Below, in pieces: positions 1-21,737 of a stretch of 64,000 bases of DNA (the first letter of the stretch is position 1; each line of letters begins with the position of its first letter). The notes beneath the pieces were generated by a model. The model worked only from the letters and a program-made list of their open reading frames with translations, was not told the origin of the DNA and did not search any database. A program made the translations under genes and the position numbers. Origin of the DNA: Cryobacterium ruanii (GTDB lineage Bacteria; Actinomycetota; Actinomycetes; Actinomycetales; Microbacteriaceae); assembly GCF_004404055.1 (NCBI RefSeq), contig NZ_SOHK01000015.1, forward strand, positions 186,001 through 250,000, written 5' to 3'.

Positions 1-641
1 CGCTGCACCGGACCGTGATTGCCGCGGGGGTTCTGAGCGTGGGGATTGTGGGCGGGTCGATGGTCGTGCTGGCGGGAGCGGGGCATCCGCTGTCGTGGGT
101 GGTACTCGCCGTGAGCATGTTCGCCGTCGTGGCCTACTCGGTGCGCGGACTGCGGTTCAAGGAACGCCCCGTTTTGGACTCGATCACCTCGAGCACCCAC
201 TTTGTCAGCCCCGCCGTTTACGGGCTCGTGGTGGCCGGAGCCACGATCGACTTCGCGCTGCTGGCACTGCTCGCGGCGTTCGGTCTGTGGGGCATGGCCA
301 GCCATGCCTTCGGCGCGGTGCAGGACGTCGAACCGGACCGCCAGGCCGGGATCGCGTCGATCGCGACGGCGCTCGGTGCCGGGCCGACCGTGCGACTCTC
401 GATCACCTTCTGGGCCGTCGCTGGAGTGCTCATGCTCGCGACGCCGTGGCCCGGGCCGCTCGCCGCGGTGCTGGCCGTTCCCTACATCCTTGCGGCGCTG
501 CCGTTCCGGTCGATCAGCGACGAGCAGTCGGCGACGGCCAACCGAGGCTGGAAACGTTTTCTCTGGCTCAATTTCATCACCGGTTCCCTCGTGACCCTGT
601 TGCTGATCTACTGGGTGCGGCACAGCGCCGGAGAATTCTGA
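1..641 (+). CDS. UbiA-family prenyltransferase, probable lycopene elongase (5' end outside window)
   Basis: This is the C-terminal part of an integral-membrane UbiA-type prenyltransferase. The frame is open to the window edge, so the start lies upstream. The diagnostic second Asp-rich motif is visible (SHAFGAVQDVEPDRQAG, with D-x-x-x-D), followed by IASIATALGA and three to four hydrophobic segments ending in LLLIYWVR. In actinobacteria this form usually prenylates lycopene to C45/C50 carotenoids (crtEb type). Homogentisate or 4-hydroxybenzoate prenyltransferases share the fold, so the substrate is inferred. The other carotenoid genes would lie to the left of the window. Confidence 0.75.
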   Translation, partial: LHRTVIAAGVLSVGIVGGSMVVLAGAGHPLSWVVLAVSMFAVVAYSVRGLRFKERPVLDSITSSTHFVSPAVYGLVVAGATIDFALLALLAAFGLWGMASHAFGAVQDVEPDRQAGIASIATALGAGPTVRLSITFWAVAGVLMLATPWPGPLAAVLAVPYILAALPFRSISDEQSATANRGWKRFLWLNFITGSLVTLLLIYWVRHSAGEF

Positions 642-678
642 TTCGAGCCCAGTCGAGTTCGGCCGTTAGAGTGAACAG

Positions 679-1056
679 ATGGAGCTCACGTCTGCCCGCG
701 TCGACAGTTGGAGCTGGGGCGTGCGCCTGTTCAAGACGCGTTCCATGGCCACGACGGCCTGCCGCGCCGGGCATGTGCGGGTGAACGGTGACAAAGCCAA
801 AGCCGCGCAGGCCCTGCACATCGGCGATGAGGTGCGGGTGCGCTCGGACGGCTTCGACCGGGTGCTAGTCGTGTCGCGCCTCGTGGTCAAACGGGTCGGC
901 GCCGCCGTAGCAGCCGAGTGCTACGTCGACAACACTCCCCCGCCGCCGCCGCGCGAAGAGGTGGCGCTAGTGCCCATGCGGGACCGCGGTGCCGGGCGGC
1001 CGACGAAGCGCGAGCGTCGGGAGATCGACGAGCTGCGCGGGCACGTCAACGAGTGA
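679..1056 (+). CDS. S4-domain RNA-binding protein, Hsp15/HslR-like
   Basis: This 125-residue protein has an N-terminal S4 domain (residues about 5-65: RVDSWSWGVRLFKTRS, then CRAGHVRVNGDKAK and IGDEVRV). It has a basic tail ending GAGRPTKRERREIDEL. The length and the tail match the ribosome-associated heat-shock protein Hsp15 family, which binds stalled 50S subunits carrying nascent chain. The start ATG at 679 follows a 37-bp gap after the prenyltransferase stop. It is transcribed toward the csrA end of the flagellar operon. Confidence 0.85.
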   Translation: MELTSARVDSWSWGVRLFKTRSMATTACRAGHVRVNGDKAKAAQALHIGDEVRVRSDGFDRVLVVSRLVVKRVGAAVAAECYVDNTPPPPPREEVALVPMRDRGAGRPTKRERREIDELRGHVNE

Positions 1057-1106
1057 CGGATGCGACGCCAGCGCTGGGTGCCGGTGCCGGACGCGGCTCG
1101 AACGGG

Positions 1107-1463
1107 CTAAGCCGGTGTGGGCGGCCGCGGCAGCGCCGGCTTGGCGCCTGGCTCGGCTGATTCCGGCGCGGGTGCGTACGTCTGCGGTGGTATCTGCGGC
1201 TGAGACTGGCGGGACTGCGCTGACTGCAACGCCGCCAGAACGCTGAGCGACCGCCTGATGCGGTCTTCGGCCTCGGTGTCGATCTGGCTCGCCGCAAGGT
1301 TCGCCTCGCTAACGGCGCGAACGACCTCATCCCGTTGGATTTTGACTCCCCGCGGTGCATCGATTCCGATGCGCACACTGTCGCCGCGGGCATCGAGCAC
1401 GGTGATGACGATATCGTCACCGATGAGGATCTTTTCCCCCGGTTTGCGTGTCAGAACGAGCAT
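1107..1463 (-). CDS. csrA: Carbon storage regulator CsrA with a long C-terminal tail
   Basis: This is an RNA-binding translational regulator. The first 60 residues match CsrA (MLVLTRKPGEKILIGDDIVI, then RIGIDAPRGV), and the RNA-contacting residues L4, R6 and R44 are kept. The family is usually 60-80 residues. This protein has 118, with a Gln/Pro-rich tail (SQSRQSQPQIPPQTYAPAP and PALPRPPTPA). It is the last gene of the flagellar series, 9 nt after the flhF-like stop. In Bacillus, CsrA represses flagellin translation and is antagonised by FliW. A fliW gene (31134-31532) and two flagellin leaders with CsrA-type hairpins are in this window. Confidence 0.95.
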   Translation of the reverse strand: MLVLTRKPGEKILIGDDIVITVLDARGDSVRIGIDAPRGVKIQRDEVVRAVSEANLAASQIDTEAEDRIRRSLSVLAALQSAQSRQSQPQIPPQTYAPAPESAEPGAKPALPRPPTPA

Positions 1464-1472
1464 CGTTACAGC

Positions 1473-2492
1473 TTACCGTTCGCCGTCGTCGGGCCGAGAA
1501 TGCGGTGGCGCCGCGCGACGGCCGGTCGGCGCGGCGGCCACCCGCCCGTCCATCCATTCCACCGGCAGTCCGAGGTCGTCGACCGTGGCGGGTGAGGTCG
1601 TGAACTGGCGACCGAGCGCGGCGACCGCGTGCACCTGGACGACGGTGACGACCAGGTTGACCCAACGTATGGTGTCCTCAGTTTTTCGACTAGCGTCAAC
1701 CACCACCCAGACCTGATCGGCACCGATCGCGGCGAGTGTGGCCGCGCGCGCAATCACATCCGTGGACGGTTCGATACCGTAGGCGATGAACGTGCTGTGC
1801 CCAATCTCCACTCCAAGGGCCCTGGCCAGCACAGCGCCGCGGCGATCGTCGACGCGCTCGATCTGGTCGTTGGCCACGGCGCCAGAAATGCGCAGCTCTC
1901 CCGCACCGGCCACCCGCAACATAAGGCGAGCAACGGTGATCGGGTCTTGTTCGAGCCCGACGATCAAAACCAGGTCTCCGGGCCGGGTGAGCGGGGCCGG
2001 AACGGGTGGGCGGGCCAGCTTCGGCGCCGCGGCCATGATCGGTGCCCGGGTCACCGCCTGGATCGGGGCTTCAACCATGGCCGGAGCCGATGCAACGAGT
2101 AGATCGGGCCCGACCTGCTGCACGACACTACGACCGGTCGCGAAGGTGAGTTCGTCCATAAGCTTCGCGAACCCGTCCGAGGCCGTCGACAACCGTGGCG
2201 AGGACTGCGTCGGGTACAGCTGGGATTCGGCCTCGTCGGCATCGTCGAGCAGGGCCGCAATACCGAGCCGGGCCGAAATATCAAGGCCGGCGTGCGCCGA
2301 CCGCTTGCGCTGTGCCGGTTCTAAGACCTCGACCGTGATTTCGTAGTGCTGACGCGCGAAGAATCCACGGATGCCGCCGACGGTCACCCGCTCGGCGGCG
2401 ATGATGGTGGCATTGGCCCCGTGCTCGGCTAGGACGCGTTCCTGCAGTTCCCGCAGTGTCGCACCCTCAAGCAGAAATCGTTTCGGCTCCAC
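1473..2492 (-). CDS. FlhF-like protein with degenerate GTPase motifs
   Basis: The N-terminus (VEPKRFLLEGATLRELQERV, then GANATIIAAERV) matches the start of FlhF, the SRP-type GTPase that helps place flagella. The gene sits directly after flhA, where flhF normally is. In the G-domain region, however, the P-loop is replaced by IVGLEQDPITVARLML, with no GxxGxGKT, and the DTAGR motif is also gone (VVVDASRKTED). It probably cannot bind GTP in the usual way. The start is uncertain: GTG at 2492 gives the FlhF-like beginning, GTG at 2501 and TTG at 2513 are in frame, and all overlap the flhA end. The length is about 339 residues. Confidence 0.7.
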   Translation of the reverse strand: MEPKRFLLEGATLRELQERVLAEHGANATIIAAERVTVGGIRGFFARQHYEITVEVLEPAQRKRSAHAGLDISARLGIAALLDDADEAESQLYPTQSSPRLSTASDGFAKLMDELTFATGRSVVQQVGPDLLVASAPAMVEAPIQAVTRAPIMAAAPKLARPPVPAPLTRPGDLVLIVGLEQDPITVARLMLRVAGAGELRISGAVANDQIERVDDRRGAVLARALGVEIGHSTFIAYGIEPSTDVIARAATLAAIGADQVWVVVDASRKTEDTIRWVNLVVTVVQVHAVAALGRQFTTSPATVDDLGLPVEWMDGRVAAAPTGRRAAPPHSRPDDGER

Positions 2493-4518
2493 GGACCACA
2501 CCCACTGTCTCAATGGTCACATTCGCCGACGTTACTTCCTGGTATGACAATACCGGCAGGCCGCCGGTCTGCGTGGAGATCAGGCGACGGATGGCGGGGC
2601 GAAGCGCCGGAGCACAGACCAGCACCGCGGTCTGTCCGCTGGCTTCGACCCTGGCAACGGACGTACGCACGGAGTTGAGCACGGCTTCGATGCGGGCCGG
2701 GTCCATCAAGATCTGGGTGCCCTGATCTGACGGGCGCAAACCTTCGAGCATGGACTGCTCGAGGGTAGGTTCAATCATGATCACCCGCAGCACAGTGCCT
2801 TCGAGATACTGCGCGGTCAGAGCCGGGCCGAGGGCCTGACGGGCGGCTTCAACGAGCCCTTCCGGGTCATTGGAAGCCTTGGCCCGCAGGGATAGCGCCT
2901 CGTAGATGCGCGGCAGGTCGTTGATGGGAATCTGCTCGATTAGCAGCCCTTGCAGCACGCGCTGCACCTCGGCGAGCGAGAGTAGGCCGGGAATCAGATC
3001 GTCGACGGCCGAAGGATTGACCTGTTTGACTCCATCGGTGAGCACCCGCACGTCTTCCCGGGTGAGAAGGCGCGCCGCGTTCGTGGTGATGATCGACGAG
3101 AGGTGGGTGACCACGACCGAGACCCGGTCGATGACCGTGGCACCGGTCATCTCTGCGCTGTGCCGCATTTCGCTCGGTACCCATTTTCCAGCCAGACCGA
3201 ACACCGGCTCGATGGTGACCTGCCCGGGAAGGGTTTCGAGGGCGTCACCGAGCGCGAGCACCTTGCCGGCTGGTGCTAACCCGCGCCCGTATTCAACACC
3301 GGCGATGCGAATGACGTAGGTCGACGACGGTAAATCGACGCTGTCCCTGGTGCGCACCGGCGGCACCACCACGCCCAGGTCCATGGCAATTTTGCGACGG
3401 AGGCCCCGAACCCGGGCCAGCAGGTCGTCCGACGCGCCGGAGACCAGGTCGACCAGGTCGGGCGAGAGCATGATCTCGAGCGCGTGCACGCGCATCTGCT
3501 CGATCAGGTCTTCGGTCGTGTCGGTTTTGGGAGCGCTCTTCTCTGAGGCTGTGGTGGCCTCGATGCTGGCCAGTTTGGTGTCCTCCCCGGCTTTGATGCG
3601 TTGAGCGATCAGCATGAGCGCCATCCCCACCATGAGGAACGGCAGCACCGGCATGCCAGGAATGAGCGCCATCAGAATGGCCGCCGCGCCGGCAATGGTC
3701 AGGGCGTTACGCGACTGGGTGAGCTGAGCGGATGCCGTCGACCCGATGTCGGTCTCCGCATTCGAGCGGGTCACGATCATGCCGGTGGACACGGCCATGA
3801 GCAGGGCCGGGATCTGGGTGACGAGGCCGTCTCCGATGGTCAGCAGGGCGTAGGTGTTGACCGCCTCGCCAATCTCCATGCCGCGCTGCAGCATGCCGAT
3901 GGCAATGCCGCCGATGAGGTTGATAACGATGATGACGAGCCCGGCGATAGCATCACCCTTAACGAACTTGGAGGCGCCATCCATGGCACCGTAGAAGTCC
4001 GCTTCGGCGGACACTTCGGCACGACGATCCTTGGCCTCGGCATCGGTGATCAGGCCGGCGTTGAGGTCGGCGTCGATGGCCATCTGCTTGCCGGGCATGG
4101 CGTCGAGGGTGAACCGTGCACCGACCTCGGCCACTCGCTCGGCGCCCTTGGTGACCACGACGAATTGGATCACCACGAGGATGAGAAAAATGACCGCGCC
4201 GATAATGATCGAGCCGCCGACGGCGACGTGCCCGAAGGCTTCAATCACCTGCCCAGCGTAACCATCGCCAAGAACGAGACGAGTGGATGCCACGTTGAGG
4301 CCAAGACGAAACAGGGTCGCGACCAGCAGCAACGAGGGAAAAACCGAGAAGTCGAGCGGCTTCTTCACGAACATCGTCGTGAGCAGGGTGACCAGTCCGA
4401 GCATGATGTTCAGGATGATCAGGACATCGAGCAGGCCAGCCGGGATCGGCACGACCAACAGCAGGATGATGCCGACCACGCCGACCGGAACGGCGAGCTT
4501 GATGAGATTACGATTCAC
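2467..4518 (-). CDS. flhA: Flagellar export gate protein FlhA
   Basis: This is the large export-gate component of the flagellar type III secretion apparatus. The 683 residues have about eight N-terminal membrane segments, the conserved cytoplasmic loop region (ARFTLDAMPGKQMAIDADLN and RRAEVSAEADFYGAMDGASKF) and a C-terminal cytoplasmic domain (ALSLRAKASNDPEGLVEAARQALG) that docks substrates and chaperones. The GTG start at 4518 overlaps the flhB stop as GTGA. A longer in-frame extension to 4689 would overlap flhB heavily and lacks family similarity. Confidence 0.97.
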   Translation of the reverse strand: MNRNLIKLAVPVGVVGIILLLVVPIPAGLLDVLIILNIMLGLVTLLTTMFVKKPLDFSVFPSLLLVATLFRLGLNVASTRLVLGDGYAGQVIEAFGHVAVGGSIIIGAVIFLILVVIQFVVVTKGAERVAEVGARFTLDAMPGKQMAIDADLNAGLITDAEAKDRRAEVSAEADFYGAMDGASKFVKGDAIAGLVIIVINLIGGIAIGMLQRGMEIGEAVNTYALLTIGDGLVTQIPALLMAVSTGMIVTRSNAETDIGSTASAQLTQSRNALTIAGAAAILMALIPGMPVLPFLMVGMALMLIAQRIKAGEDTKLASIEATTASEKSAPKTDTTEDLIEQMRVHALEIMLSPDLVDLVSGASDDLLARVRGLRRKIAMDLGVVVPPVRTRDSVDLPSSTYVIRIAGVEYGRGLAPAGKVLALGDALETLPGQVTIEPVFGLAGKWVPSEMRHSAEMTGATVIDRVSVVVTHLSSIITTNAARLLTREDVRVLTDGVKQVNPSAVDDLIPGLLSLAEVQRVLQGLLIEQIPINDLPRIYEALSLRAKASNDPEGLVEAARQALGPALTAQYLEGTVLRVIMIEPTLEQSMLEGLRPSDQGTQILMDPARIEAVLNSVRTSVARVEASGQTAVLVCAPALRPAIRRLISTQTGGLPVLSYQEVTSANVTIETVGVVRGAETISA

Positions 4519-5648
4519 GAACGGCCTCCGGCAGTTCTCGGTACTGATGGGGATGATGGTGGGGCGGCGAGGGCGCTCATGGTGTGGGTTCCCCCCGTAC
4601 TCCCCCGCTTCTGCAGGGCCATGACGAAAGCGAGCACCCGGGCGACCGCGTTGTACAGTTCGGTCGGAATCTCGTCGCCGATCTCGCATGCCGCATGCAG
4701 GGCCCGCGCGAGCGGCACGTCCTGCACGATCGGAACCTGATCGGTCTCGGCCTGCACGCGAATGCGGGCGGCGATATGGCCGACCCCCTTGGCGACCACG
4801 CGCGGAGCCGACTTGCCCGGTTCGTACTTGAGCGCCACGGCCACGTGCGTCGGGTTGACCAGTACGACGTTGGCGTCGGCGACCGAGGCGATCATGCGAT
4901 TGCGGCTCATCATCAGCTGGCGGGACCGACGCTGCGATTTGATCAGCGGGTCGCCCTCTGATGCTTTGTTCTCGTCCTTGACCTCTTTCTTCGTCATCAT
5001 CGTCTTCTTGCGATTGCGTTTCATGATGACGTAGATGTCGGCCACGGCGAGCACGAGGCCGGCCGCTACGGCCGCCTGCAGCAGGGCGGCCGTTCCGCCG
5101 GCGGCGGCGCTGAGCAGCTCCGACACCGGTAGTCCCCCGGCGGTCAGCAGCACCGGCATCAGGCCCTGGACCACCCAGTACAGCACCACACCCACAGCCG
5201 CGGTCTTGGCGAGCACCTTCACGCCCTCCCAGAGCGCCTGCGTGCCGAACACACGTTTCATGCCCGTGACGAGATTGAACTGCTCGTACTTGCCGGTGAA
5301 CTTCTTAAAGTGGATGCCGCCCTGCACGGCTGCTCCGCCCAGCACGACGATGAGCACCACGACAAAGAACGGGGTCAGAATATCGGCCAGTGAGGCCAGG
5401 CCCCTCCCGAGCGCTTCAACGGCGACGCTCGGATCCGGATTGCTGGCGAGCGTGCCGATGCGGTACATCTGGTCGGTTCCCGCCGCGCCGCCCGCCGCGA
5501 TGGTAGCCGGCAGCATGAGGCCGGCGACACCCACGCCGAGCCACGCCGTGACATCCTGTGATTTTGACAGCTCACCCTTTTCGCGCACCCGCTTCATGCG
5601 TTTCTGGGTGGCTGGTTCGGTCTTCTCGCCGGAGTCGGTTTCGGACAC
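4515..5648 (-). CDS. flhB: Flagellar export switch protein FlhB
   Basis: This protein controls substrate specificity of the export apparatus. It opens with SGEKTEPATQKRMKRVREKG, typical of FlhB, then has four membrane segments. The autocleavage motif NPTH is at residues 265-268 (VVLVNPTHVAVALKYEPG). The 377-residue protein has a short Ser/Pro-rich tail after the conserved domain. The GTG start at 5648 abuts the fliR stop, and the end overlaps flhA by four bases. Confidence 0.97.
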   Translation of the reverse strand: MSETDSGEKTEPATQKRMKRVREKGELSKSQDVTAWLGVGVAGLMLPATIAAGGAAGTDQMYRIGTLASNPDPSVAVEALGRGLASLADILTPFFVVVLIVVLGGAAVQGGIHFKKFTGKYEQFNLVTGMKRVFGTQALWEGVKVLAKTAAVGVVLYWVVQGLMPVLLTAGGLPVSELLSAAAGGTAALLQAAVAAGLVLAVADIYVIMKRNRKKTMMTKKEVKDENKASEGDPLIKSQRRSRQLMMSRNRMIASVADANVVLVNPTHVAVALKYEPGKSAPRVVAKGVGHIAARIRVQAETDQVPIVQDVPLARALHAACEIGDEIPTELYNAVARVLAFVMALQKRGSTGGTHTMSALAAPPSSPSVPRTAGGRS

Positions 5649-6407
5649 CTACCTCACCGCCATGAGGGCGTCGAGGGCCTGCCCGGTGAGAGACGACACG
5701 ATGCGCGGCAGGGCCACGAAGACCGTCGCTGCGAGGCTCAACGTGATGAGGATCTTGAGCGGAAAGCCGAGGGCGAACGCGTTGAGGGCGGGCGCGACCC
5801 GTGTGAGCAGGCCGAGGCCGGCATCCGCTAGAAAGAGCACCACGAGCAGGGGGCCGGCGATCTGCACGGCGGCGAGGAACATCTGGGTGGTGGCGGCGAT
5901 CATGGCCTGCGCTGGCGCGGCCAGGTCCAGGCCCGAGCCGAGTGGAATGGCGGAGTAGCTGCGAAACAGGCCGCCGAGCACCAGCTGGTAGGCGCCGGAG
6001 GCGAACATCAACGCGAGCGCGGTCATGTGAAACAGGCGGGTGAACTGTGCGCCGTTGATCATGGACTGCGGGTCGAAGCCCTGCGCCATCTGGAACCCGC
6101 TGAACATGTCGATGAGACCACCGGCCGACTGCACGGCGGCGAAGACCAGAAAAACCAAGAAGCCCAGGGTGGCACCGACCAGAATTTCCAGAATCAGGGC
6201 GCCGACGAAACCGGCGGTGTCCTGTGAGACGTAGTCGGCGGTGACCCGCGGCGAGACGGCCAGGGCCAGCCCGATGGCCAGCATCGCTTTGATCCGTGCG
6301 GGGAATGCGCGATAGGAAAATGGCGGCGCGATGACCAGAAAAGCGACCATGCGCACACCGGCGAGCATGACCGCTTCGATCCAGGCGAAATTGAGGTTGA
6401 ACTCCAC
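5649..6407 (-). CDS. fliR: Flagellar export protein FliR
   Basis: This is a core membrane protein of the export gate, joining FliP and FliQ. The 252 residues contain about six hydrophobic segments. Family features include FSYRAFPARIKAMLAIGLAL and the segment GFQMAQGFDPQSMING. The GTG start is one base after the fliQ stop. Order fliP-fliQ-fliR-flhB-flhA is the usual order in Gram-positive flagellar operons. Confidence 0.96.
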   Translation of the reverse strand: MEFNLNFAWIEAVMLAGVRMVAFLVIAPPFSYRAFPARIKAMLAIGLALAVSPRVTADYVSQDTAGFVGALILEILVGATLGFLVFLVFAAVQSAGGLIDMFSGFQMAQGFDPQSMINGAQFTRLFHMTALALMFASGAYQLVLGGLFRSYSAIPLGSGLDLAAPAQAMIAATTQMFLAAVQIAGPLLVVLFLADAGLGLLTRVAPALNAFALGFPLKILITLSLAATVFVALPRIVSSLTGQALDALMAVR

Positions 6408-18504: not shown

Positions 18505-19118
18505 GCCGTCGCCTCGACGAGTGCGGCCCTGGCCCGATCAAAGGCCGTGCCGATGCGGGCGTCGAGAAACCCGTCGCTGAACTCGGTGATCGCATCCCCG
18601 CGCTTGAGCCGGGAATCAGCAACGAACGTGATGTTCTCCAGTGCCCGCGTCTGCGCTCCGAGCACGACGAGATCCTCCGGGTGCATGCGAATGGTGTGCA
18701 CCTCGCTGCGATCGAGCTGGTCAGGCTGAAGCATGGCCCGTTCGAGTGCGCGACGCGCCGACGGTTCCGTGTGGCTGAGCTCAGCGCCCAGGATAGCCTC
18801 GGCCAGCTCGAGGGACATGTTCACGAGCGTGCTCTCCGCATGCTGGATGAGCGGAATGCTGCGTTCGTCGAGGGCGCGGGCGGCTGCGCCGAGCAGCCTC
18901 ACCGCATGGTCGACCTGCGCGTCGCCGGAGCGTTCATTTTCGGCGTGTTCGGCGTTGATCTCGTCGGCGCGACGCGCAACATCTGCTGCGGCCAGGCGCA
19001 GCCCCTCGGTGTAACCGGCAGCGTGCCCCTCGGCCCGCGATTGCTCGGCGGCGCGGTCCTGCTCCTCGTCGCGCAGGCGTGGAAAGGCCATGCGGCCAAA
19101 CCCGGTGTCAGTTGACAT
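18501..19118 (-). CDS. fliH: Flagellar export stator protein FliH
   Basis: This is a regulator of the FliI ATPase, 205 residues from ATG 19118. It has a charged helical N-terminal region (RLRDEEQDRAAEQSRAEGHA, then AGYTEGLRLA) and a C-terminal V-ATPase E-like domain (HTIRMHPEDLVVLGA, then DSRLKRGDAITEF). A longer in-frame extension to 19262 lies inside fliG and lacks family character. The start overlaps the fliG end by 11 bp. Confidence 0.9.
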   Translation of the reverse strand: MSTDTGFGRMAFPRLRDEEQDRAAEQSRAEGHAAGYTEGLRLAAADVARRADEINAEHAENERSGDAQVDHAVRLLGAAARALDERSIPLIQHAESTLVNMSLELAEAILGAELSHTEPSARRALERAMLQPDQLDRSEVHTIRMHPEDLVVLGAQTRALENITFVADSRLKRGDAITEFSDGFLDARIGTAFDRARAALVEATA

Positions 19119-20124
19119 ACTCGTCCTCGGCGCCGCGCTGCACGGTGATGCTGCCCTGTGCTTCCATGTCGCGAATGGCACGCACGATTTCAGCGCGGGC
19201 GTCTTCGACCTGGCGCATGCGCACCGGTCCCAGACTCTTGGTCTCGTCGTCGAGAACGTCACGGTTGCGCTCGGAGAGATTGGCCCGAATGACCTCGGCT
19301 ACGGCGTCGGAGGTGCCCTTCATGGCCATGGCCAGAATGTTGGTGTCGATGCCGCGCAGCACCTGCTGCACGTCGCGGCTCTCCAGCTTGACGATGTCGA
19401 CGAAGGTCAGCATGCGGGAGCGAATCTCCTCGGCCAGGATCGGATCGCGTTCTTCGAGCCCCTCCAGCAGGGCGCGCTCGGTGGCGGCATCCGCTCGGTT
19501 GATGATGTCGACGAGCGGCTGTACCCCCCCGATCACCTCGATGCTCTCACGGGAGACGATCTTTCCGGTGCGCAGCTTGAGGGTGTCGGTCACGACGCGA
19601 ATGGCTTCGGGCGTGGCGCTCGACATGGTGGCGATGCACTGGGCAACGTCCGTGCGCAGGCCAGGCTCCATGCCGGCCAGAACAGCGGATGCCTGGTCGC
19701 GCCGCAGGTGCGCGAGAACCAGCGCAATGGTCTGGGGCATTTCACCGTCGAGCAGGTTGAGCACGTCGCCCGGCTCCGAGGGGTCGAGAAACTCAAACGC
19801 TTTGCCGGCCATGCTGGTGGCGACGCGGTTCATCACCCCCGCAGCACGCTCGGCGCCAAACGAGGCTTCGAGCAGGCCGACGGCGAATTCGTGCCCGCCG
19901 CGGGACAGCCGGCGACCCTTCTGGGTGATCTCGTGAAACTCGTTGAGCGTGGCCTCGGCAACGGTCGGGTCCACATTACGCAACTGCACGATTTCAGCGG
20001 CAATGACTTCAGCCTCGACGTCGCTGAACTGCTTCATGACCTCGGTTGCCCGCTGTCGATCCATGTTCATGAGCACGACGGCCACCTTTTGGGTGCCGGT
20101 TAGCGTTGTCCCGGGCTCGTTCAC
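19108..20124 (-). CDS. fliG: Flagellar motor switch protein FliG
   Basis: This is the rotor protein that meets the stator, 338 residues. It has the three-domain armadillo-like pattern (LTGTQKVAVVLMNMDRQRA; EFLDPSEPGDVLNLLDGEMP; and the torque helix region VLRGIDTNILAMAMKGTSDA). The GTG start overlaps the fliF stop as GTGA. Confidence 0.96.
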   Translation of the reverse strand: MNEPGTTLTGTQKVAVVLMNMDRQRATEVMKQFSDVEAEVIAAEIVQLRNVDPTVAEATLNEFHEITQKGRRLSRGGHEFAVGLLEASFGAERAAGVMNRVATSMAGKAFEFLDPSEPGDVLNLLDGEMPQTIALVLAHLRRDQASAVLAGMEPGLRTDVAQCIATMSSATPEAIRVVTDTLKLRTGKIVSRESIEVIGGVQPLVDIINRADAATERALLEGLEERDPILAEEIRSRMLTFVDIVKLESRDVQQVLRGIDTNILAMAMKGTSDAVAEVIRANLSERNRDVLDDETKSLGPVRMRQVEDARAEIVRAIRDMEAQGSITVQRGAEDEYVN

Positions 20125-21737
20125 ACGCGTTGCCGATCGTCCATGAAGCCGCGCAAAAATTCTGCAGTACTGCGCGGGTCGGACTTGGCCAGGGAATCGA
20201 TCTCCGCACGACGCAGGTCGGTGTCGGTCGGCACGAAGGCGATGGTCGGAATGATCCGGGTCGGGGTGTCATTCAGGTTGTCTAGAAACAGCGATGCAGC
20301 CGACGGTGTCACGGCGAGCGGAACGTTGGGCGCGCCGAGCGCGTTCTGCATCTCGGTGAGATCGCCGATCTCCACCGATTCCCGGCTCTGGCGACGTGAC
20401 CGGCGGGCGTACAGAATCAGGCTGATGACGAGCGTGATGACGATGCCGGCGGTGATCACCGACACTCGCAGAATCTCGGCGAACTGCTCGGCGGCGGCGG
20501 CATCCGCTGCGGCCGTGAGTGCTGCGGCTGCGGCGGCGGCACCGGTGGTGTCGAAGGCCATGACCTCGACGGTGACCGCATCACCGCGGATGGCGTCGAT
20601 ACCGGCGGCCGAGGTTACGAGTGAGGTGATGTCGGCCACGTTGAGGGTGGCGGCGGCATCGGAATCGACGGCCACTGAAACGGTCTGGCGGGTGATCGCT
20701 CCCGCCGGGATGGTGCGGCTCTCGGTGACCTTATTGACGGCGTTGTTGCGGGTGGTGGATTCGCTCGAGAACGTGCCATCGGTGGCGCCGTCGGCAACGG
20801 CGGCCGTGTCGGAGCCGAGCACGCCGGCGGCGCTGCCACCCGTTCCCGAGTAGGTCTCGGTGTCGACGGATTCGTTGAGGGCCAGCGCATCGGTCGGCGA
20901 GGTGAACGATTCCTCGACGCGTTCGGCCGACTCGTAGCTCATGTCGGCGGCGACAACGACGGTGGCGTTACCGGCGCCGACGACCTTGTCGAGCATGGCT
21001 TGCACGGCGGTGCGCACGCGGGTCTCATAGTCGGAGGCCTGCTGGTCGGCTCCTCCGGTGGCACCAACGCCGACAGCGGAGAGCACTGCGCCGGTTGAGT
21101 CGACGACCGCGACGTCGGCCGCGGTCATGCCGTCGATCGAGGCGCTGGTTAGGTGCACAATCGCCTGCACCTGGTCGTTGGAGAGCGTGACGCCGTTCTG
21201 GGTCTCCACGAAAACGGATGCCGTCGGGTCGTTCTGCTCCGACACGAAGACGCTCTCTTTGGGAATGGCGAGCTGCACCGAGGCCATCTTCACGCCATCG
21301 AGGGCACCGATGGTCTTGGCGAGTTCCCCCTCCAGTGCACGCTTGTAGGTGACCGACTGCTGAAACTCGCTCGAGGTGACGCCCATGGTGTCGAGCAGGG
21401 AGTATCCCCCAGTGCTCGAGGTGGGCAGGCCGGTCGACGCGGCCTTGATGCGTTCATCGTAGACGTTGGCCTCGGGCACCAGAATGGTCGCACCGCCGTC
21501 GGCGAGTTCGTATTTGACGCCGTCGGTGCGCAGCTGCTCGACGATGCTATTGGCGTCTTCACCGCTGAGGCCGGAGAACAGGGGGGTGTAAGAGGGCTTG
21601 GTGACCCACATGCTGAGCGCGGCGATGCCGAGCACGAGCACGGCGACGCCGATGATGGCGACCGTGCGCTGGGCAATGGTGAACTCGCGTATCGCGTTTC
21701 CGAAGCGTTTGAAGACGCTGGTGACCTGCCGGGGCAT
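20121..21737 (-). CDS. fliF: Flagellar MS-ring protein FliF
   Basis: This is the basal-body base ring, 538 residues. One membrane helix is near residues 25-48, with a second near 410-435 (VITAGIVITLVISLILYARR). The ring-building motifs (YTPLFSGLSGEDANSIVEQL, then GVKYELADGGATILVP) and the FliG-binding C-terminal tail are present. The ATG start overlaps the fliE stop. Confidence 0.96.
   Translation of the reverse strand: MPRQVTSVFKRFGNAIREFTIAQRTVAIIGVAVLVLGIAALSMWVTKPSYTPLFSGLSGEDANSIVEQLRTDGVKYELADGGATILVPEANVYDERIKAASTGLPTSSTGGYSLLDTMGVTSSEFQQSVTYKRALEGELAKTIGALDGVKMASVQLAIPKESVFVSEQNDPTASVFVETQNGVTLSNDQVQAIVHLTSASIDGMTAADVAVVDSTGAVLSAVGVGATGGADQQASDYETRVRTAVQAMLDKVVGAGNATVVVAADMSYESAERVEESFTSPTDALALNESVDTETYSGTGGSAAGVLGSDTAAVADGATDGTFSSESTTRNNAVNKVTESRTIPAGAITRQTVSVAVDSDAAATLNVADITSLVTSAAGIDAIRGDAVTVEVMAFDTTGAAAAAAALTAAADAAAAEQFAEILRVSVITAGIVITLVISLILYARRSRRQSRESVEIGDLTEMQNALGAPNVPLAVTPSAASLFLDNLNDTPTRIIPTIAFVPTDTDLRRAEIDSLAKSDPRSTAEFLRGFMDDRQRV

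Follow-up and report, generated by a model that had tools for sequence, protein, structure and literature searches.

A putative pseudo-GTPase descended from FlhF next to flhA in Cryobacterium ruanii and its relatives

In the genome of Cryobacterium ruanii, the gene directly following flhA begins like flhF, whose product is a GTP-driven protein involved in the construction and placement of bacterial flagella, and does not show the GTP-binding motifs of the latter; this raises the question of whether it is flhF at all, when the motifs were lost, and what the protein might do without them. The region analysed (hereafter, the window) consists of 64,000 nucleotides (contig NZ_SOHK01000015.1, positions 186,001 to 250,000), and all the coordinates given below refer to it. 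The gene lies on the reverse strand (1473..2492; GTG start at 2492, stop codon at 1473-1475) and encodes a protein of 339 residues. Its start overlaps by 26 nt the flhA gene (2467..4689, reverse strand; PF00771), and csrA (1107..1463, reverse strand) is located downstream of it; NCBIfam CsrA matches the latter over residues 1-57, just above the cut-off. The CsrA ORF is 118 residues long, and the tail beyond residues 1-57 is rich in proline and alanine; a second csrA sequence pattern matched just part of the 60 flhA loci read in the class. The same flagellar cluster embeds fliG (19108..20124, reverse strand; TIGR00207, E 3.7e-81, above cut-off), whose product is the partner proposed below, fliF, coding for the MS ring protein (20121..21737, reverse strand; TIGR00206, E 6.9e-67, above cut-off), fliI (above the NCBIfam FliI/YscN cut-off), and fliW, whose NCBIfam matches are under their cut-offs. 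Named relatives of the protein sharing at least 76% identity belong to Cryobacterium only; the remoter ones include Curtobacterium, Glaciibacter, Naasia, Arthrobacter, and Intrasporangium, and the class Actinomycetes is the home of Cryobacterium, Curtobacterium, and Intrasporangium.

The initial annotation of this DNA had recognized an FlhF-like N-terminus and gene position, with csrA occupying the place of flhG. Both observations agree with our data: the gene directly follows flhA, the NCBIfam FlhF model TIGR03499 matches its product (residues 9-68 only, E 1.2e-5, 25.5 bits vs. a cut-off of 174), and no CbiA/MinD-type match falls within the window. Residues 1-60 (2313..2492, reverse strand) represent an FlhF-type N-terminal domain with the order beta-alpha-beta-beta, the counterpart of the FliG-interacting domain (FID), and an HMM built on the N-domains of P-loop-bearing FlhFs from other lineages retrieved the protein with an E of 5.4e-9. 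In the AlphaFold2 model (85 window and locus sequences; mean pLDDT 81.5), the pLDDT is about 90 or more both in the N-domain and across most of the C-terminal domain. For L235, which is a distant relative, the model aligned with the FID structure 9en1 over 54 columns (31% identity, target TM 0.80; E 0.38, rank 26), and 9en1 was absent among the matches listed for the window model in the fold search.

The N-domain is followed by a linker, which harbors a conserved helix at residues 77-92 (2217..2264, reverse strand; GIAALLDDADEAESQL), with L81 and L82 invariant in 32 sequences; in the AlphaFold2 model, the helix spans residues 72-92. A second conserved element, the linker motif STxSxxFxxLMxxL, occupies residues 102-115 (2148..2189, reverse strand; STASDGFAKLMDEL). 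In its strict form, it was found in 67 of the 97 family-set proteins and in 16 of 60 complete ORFs of other loci (mean for shuffled sequences 0.01), in none of 16 P-loop-bearing FlhFs, and is missing from many groups (e.g., f16, f47, f94, and f118); it might possibly be a binding peptide. The family set comprises 107 proteins, 97 of which have an N-domain match (91 distinct, owing to same-species copies); in at least some of the ten others (L013, L027, L073, L077, L083, L089, L102, L103, L107, and L108), the match is missing owing to a start chosen too far inside. Residues 161-323 (1524..2012, reverse strand) correspond to a pseudo-G domain with a predicted SRP-GTPase fold, which contains a newly conserved block at residues 259-270 (1683..1718, reverse strand; DQVWVVVDASRK). 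D259, Q260, W262, and K270 are invariant among 32 aligned relatives, at least three pairs of which are from the same species; the alignment of 85 sequences has no invariant column, and W262, K270, and D273 are conserved there at 90% or more.

Concerning the role of the protein, we consider it probable that the gene is this lineage's flhF turned into a pseudo-GTPase, the N-domain being an adaptor for FliG, the G-like domain a docking module, and the GTP cycle having decayed once. According to this scheme, the N-domain would still bind FliG, as it does in Shewanella FlhF, and would deliver FliG to FliF, allowing the MS and C rings to start; the G-like domain would represent a fixed docking module for another partner, rather than a GTP-driven dimer; the GTPase activator FlhG would have gone first, thus rendering the GTP cycle superfluous, and the latter would have decayed in the ancestor shared by the later classes. 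A nucleotide-independent adaptor holding FliG by its N-domain appears to us to be the best reading, and a GTP-independent positioning or assembly factor, as the initial annotation had suggested, is the most likely function. If such a fixed adaptor is right, the contact with FliG would be GTP-independent in these bacteria.

The published work bears on this proposal in two directions. In Shewanella (PMC11236974), FlhF needs its first 60 residues to bind FliG, and these also suffice for the binding; the FliG-interacting domain consists of three strands and a helix. The landmark HubP is bound by the NG domain, and neither GDP nor GTP affects this binding. In Pseudomonas (PMC12713375), cells whose FlhF lacks the G domain have a non-polar flagellum in about 65% of cases, the B and N domains supporting (misplaced) flagella without it, and motility requires all three FlhF domains; the same study states that the FlhF-FliG contact is regulated by GTP binding, which counts against an adaptor holding FliG without GTP. 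GTPase-motif mutants of Vibrio are reported to lose their flagella and polar location. Since mutants differ between species, the purpose of the FlhF GTP cycle is still argued.

The target might also be the export gate FlhA, or flagellar gene expression via the csrA neighborhood, instead of FliG and the MS ring. The 26-nt overlap with flhA, the direct adjacency of the two genes across the class, and the presence of csrA as the next gene in the window point in that direction; however, P-loop-bearing FlhFs share the flhA-flhF order, and the domain that was retained is the one binding FliG in Shewanella (PMC11236974), so that we regard this target as unlikely.

The positions of the GTP-binding motifs were analyzed by profile alignment. 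At the G1 position, the P-loop GxxGxGKT is replaced by GLEQDPIT (residues 179-186; 1935..1958, reverse strand), a placement obtained in two steps, i.e., by aligning class-level relatives with FlhF, and then the window family with those relatives; in the former, the FlhF P-loop aligns with a GDVLVVVG segment. According to the profile alignment, FIAYGIEP (core IAYGI; residues 235-242; 1767..1790, reverse strand) replaces the DTAGR strand at G3, and ALGRQFTTSP (core LGRQFT; residues 292-301; 1590..1619, reverse strand) the TKLDET segment at G4. A sequence pattern written for the block that follows G3 in FlhF matched one of 28 FlhFs and was left out. The letters surviving at the motif positions are G179, T186, the G of DTAG, and T298; all others, including the lysine and the aspartates, are gone. 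The absence of the P-loop lysine and of a DTAGR-type motif, noticed in the initial annotation, is thus borne out by the alignment.

A pocket that was rebuilt, still binding a nucleotide or another small ligand so that the protein stays a switch, would be compatible with the near invariance of G179, the first glycine of the old P-loop, with weak matches to the Pfam ETF domain in three of 85 members (best E 3e-4), and with the regulation of FliG binding by GTP in Pseudomonas (PMC12713375). On the other hand, the binding positions have no conserved lysine, aspartate, or TKxD, the newly conserved residues differ from the GTP-binding set, and in groups f16, f47, and their relatives the C-terminal domain has drifted further; a rebuilt pocket is, in our opinion, quite unlikely.

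The initial annotation had also made its reading depend on the predicted structure having an SRP-GTPase fold, and the fold is present in the model. SRP GTPases account for all 31 PDB matches of Foldseek at E ≤ 0.001, with FtsY on top (5.7e-6), and VIA gave Z values of 17.2 vs. Ffh (7o9f), 16.0 vs. FlhF (8r9r), and 15.3 vs. FlhF (2px3). The structural alignments span residues 160-323; the linker helices (72-92 and 106-118) are unmatched to the helical N subdomain of NG. Although the domain has drifted further in groups f16, f47, and their relatives, the two Foldseek matches of the L235 model at E ≤ 0.001 are FlhF and Ffh, and the best 50 VIA rows (Z 8.9-11.1) are all SRP GTPases. The C-terminal domain is, hence, predicted to keep the shape of an SRP-GTPase G domain. 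Searches by sequence retrieved far less: no Pfam match anywhere in the window protein, no phmmer match in the PDB, and FtsY at just E 1.4, ranked under unrelated chains, in a profile search of the PDB. The Pfam SRP GTPase family matched none of 85 members, and for this reason the gene is easily missed; NCBIfam FlhF matched 52 of the 85 at E ≤ 0.001.

The comparison of profiles allowed FlhF to be distinguished from the other SRP GTPases. The C-terminal domain of the window family, compared alone, matched FlhF G domains with an E of 1.4e-6 over 112 columns, from mid-domain onward; in a further comparison, the values were 4.5e-7 (72 columns) for FlhF vs. 0.014 for FtsY/Ffh, and both direct matches (72 and 112 columns) stop short of the P-loop region. 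With the class-level relatives (n = 23 of 43 sequences, the other 20 being left out because the pattern did not match their domain start), the domain alone gave 1.4e-9 for FlhF vs. 7.3e-4 for FtsY/Ffh, and 9.4e-8 over 151 columns with a smaller FlhF set; it is colinear with FlhF G domains across 151-155 columns. The window family, in turn, aligned with these class-level relatives at 5e-41. These profile E-values refer to a single comparison; in the controls, made with the smaller FlhF set, the best values were 0.032 and 0.044 for 60 column shuffles of each set, and 0.6 and 0.38 for the reversed profiles. Judging from these profiles, the C-terminal domain resembles FlhF more than it does FtsY/Ffh, which supports the descent of the gene from flhF.

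In more general terms, the protein resembles FlhF (8r9r, 2px3; FID, 9en1) in its FliG-interacting-type N-domain, linker, predicted G fold, and flhA neighbor, whereas it differs in being without the P-loop lysine, the DTAGR aspartate, and TKxD, all of which FlhF has, in its score far below the cut-off of the FlhF model, and in FlhG, which was not found in this genome; the helical N subdomain was not recognized in the window protein. FtsY and Ffh are similar in the predicted G-domain fold (Z about 15-17), but the profile match of the window family to them is weaker than to FlhF. The C. ruanii genome contains two SRP54-family matches, adjacent to each other on contig 24, which we take to be FtsY and Ffh. 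Like pseudo-GTPases in general, the window protein combines a predicted GTPase fold under selection with the loss of the binding residues; we know of no pseudo-GTPase described within the SRP-GTPase family.

A foreign Rossmann-like domain fused to the N-domain, instead of FlhF's own domain, might explain why sequence searches of the PDB barely detect it and why the direct match of the window family to FlhF misses the P-loop region. Nevertheless, the colinearity of the class-level domain with FlhF over 151-155 columns, better than with FtsY/Ffh, the SRP-GTPase fold predicted for both the window and the L235 models, and the sequences of group f31, which by eye still read as intermediate, make such a fusion very unlikely.

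The reach of the P-loop loss was then analyzed in one phylum, whose families are designated by codes (f16, f31, f47, etc.) and not by named class. The genomes bearing flhA, i.e., flagellated, were 51 out of 394 in the class draw, 90 out of 297 in the order draw, and 63 out of 396 in the phylum draw. The class and order draws together included 127 flhA-bearing genomes, 76 of which were searched with the family profile; this matched in 56, and the N-domain HMM added two more (G707 and G781). No flhF-like gene was found in the remaining 18 (12 read beside flhA, six by profile search only), which suggests that some lineages can do without it. The region following flhA was read in 60 class genomes and 40 others, picked to cover families, misses included. 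The class loci comprised 44 complete P-loop-less ORFs, three cut by a contig end, and 13 without an N-domain match; the others comprised 15 ORFs with a P-loop, 16 complete ones without, four cut, and five without a match. The seven cut ORFs (L163, L165, L178, L204, L207, L225, and L227) were not counted as P-loop-less, nor was L190, which has no N-domain match and is hit by the family profile; the P-loop-bearing L229 also stops at a contig end. In locus L231, one of the five without a match outside the class, the flhF-like gene extends across two frames, which represents either a real frameshift or a sequencing error.

Overall, the 60 P-loop-less ORFs derive from 28 family groups and the 15 P-loop-bearing ones from eight, with no mixed group. 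The pattern used ([AG]xxxxGK[ST], searched over the entire ORF) was absent throughout the 60 complete ORFs beside flhA, two of which (L142 and L143) have no G-like domain, and throughout the 97 family-set proteins; a P-loop-like string in the linker of the Arthrobacter protein L103 is a chance occurrence. Hence, the intact P-loop elsewhere in the chain of homologs, which would have spoken against the initial annotation, was not encountered in these two sets. An N-domain HMM built on P-loop-bearing FlhFs alone detects the ORF beside flhA in those 28 P-loop-less groups. Canonical FlhF above the cut-off occurs in 15 of the 396 phylum genomes, and the P-loop is present in the 14 loci extracted correctly (for L123, the wrong ORF had been picked).

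The two states were mapped on a tree of FlhA. A single change separates P-loop-bearing sequences (P, 17 rows) from P-loop-less ones (D, 37 rows) in a rapidly built LG+G4 tree with 61 FlhA sequences, from which stateless rows were left out, and the branch leading to the D side has an SH-aLRT of 100. The rows left out of the count are G470 (cut by a contig end), G574 (frameshifted), and five without an FlhF-like match, with the same result; when "none" is treated as a third state, the number of changes is six. This one change on the FlhA tree argues for a single loss of the P-loop rather than a local event. A loss throughout Microbacteriaceae had been envisaged in the initial annotation: the loss is indeed shared, but it appears far older than that family, being one change common to 28 family groups. 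Outside the class, no FlhF-like match adjoins flhA in L215-L217 (f12) and L228 (f38); f12 sits among P-loop-bearing lineages.

As for FlhG, strong matches were obtained in three of 23 genomes, with the order flhA-flhF-flhG (5.8e-70, 5.2e-78, and 6.7e-193, the last in the query's own genome), and all three are P-loop-bearing. In the other 20, 15 of which belong to P-loop-bearing groups, the FlhG query gave nothing better than 8e-15; in this test, G587 is P-loop-bearing by family only, and G578, G641, G644, and G650 are less than 80% complete. The best FlhG match in the C. ruanii genome reached just 7e-11. The whole genome contains 14 CbiA/MinD-type matches at E ≤ 0.001, and for the best three, ParA and partition models rank on top, none above the cut-off. 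Since FlhG was found in three of the 23 genomes, all of them P-loop-bearing, it was probably lost before the P-loop.

The same split may be compared with that of other flagellar genes. As reported in PMC10746217 (mBio, 2023), FlgFG was lost in the ancestor that Acidimicrobiia, Nitriliruptoria, and Actinomycetia share, and the classes without FlgFG are stated to lack FlhF as well. In our data, 13 out of the 15 P genomes had 7-11 pieces matching TIGR03506 (FlgE/F/G), whereas 25 out of the 26 D genomes had 2-5, and the remaining three genomes had none; going by these match counts, the P/D split appears to coincide with the FlgFG split.

Whether the altered gene is still used was evaluated by 18 pairwise Nei-Gojobori comparisons with Cryobacterium relatives, some of which are duplicates and several of which have a dS above 1. 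Over the whole gene, the dN/dS was 0.12-0.24, and flhA had 0.03-0.10; of the parts of the protein, the N-domain gave 0.02-0.28, the linker 0.16-0.37, and the pseudo-G domain 0.11-0.20. These ratios indicate that the pseudo-G domain is under purifying selection and that the gene is still used. That the gene is just a functionless relic in decay, as its missing G-motif residues and its absence from several flagellated groups (f8, f4, and genus g85) might suggest, is extremely improbable in view of these ratios and of the conservation of the gene in 28 family groups. Taken with the model and the alignments, they mark the protein as a putative pseudo-GTPase, with the predicted fold retained, the binding residues gone, and purifying selection acting on it.

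Regarding the evolutionary meaning, we lean, not strongly, towards FlhF having been converted once rather than lost: once FlhG had gone, and on the branch where FlgF and FlgG were lost, the GTP switch would have become a static adaptor for FliG. If this is true, the scaffold role of FlhF would have been naturally separated from its GTP cycle, and some lineages would later have dropped the G-like domain or the whole gene; flagellated bacteria that combine a FliG-binding-type domain with a G-like one devoid of a GTP site would offer a natural test of the scaffold alone. The absence of FlhF, as stated in PMC10746217, would be revised at least for Actinomycetes, in which an altered form is present. 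FlhF itself is known; what appears to be new, on the basis of the sequences, is a pseudo-GTPase ortholog of it across many families. No title on a degenerate actinobacterial FlhF occurred among the literature matches listed, and a search for pseudoGTPase together with FlhF found none.

Natural variants were found beside flhA. In group f90, two short forms of 249 residues (L142:2104-2850; genome G717) and 277 residues (L143:364-1194; genome G698) retain both the N-domain and the linker motif; their N-terminal part alone is matched by the family profile, this being its single match in each genome, and it detected no G-like domain in these proteins or elsewhere in the two genomes. Neither an flhF-like neighbor of flhA nor a profile match was found in L145, L147, L152, L154, and L155 (f8), L153 and L174 (f4), and L166, L169, and L171 (genus g85), and these absences are apparent secondary losses. 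At the other extreme, locus L196 (genome G1084; ORF 374-6004, reverse strand) harbors an FlhF-like protein of 1876 residues with a very long linker, and further long-linker forms of 1018 and 1027 residues occur in L140 and L194, respectively.
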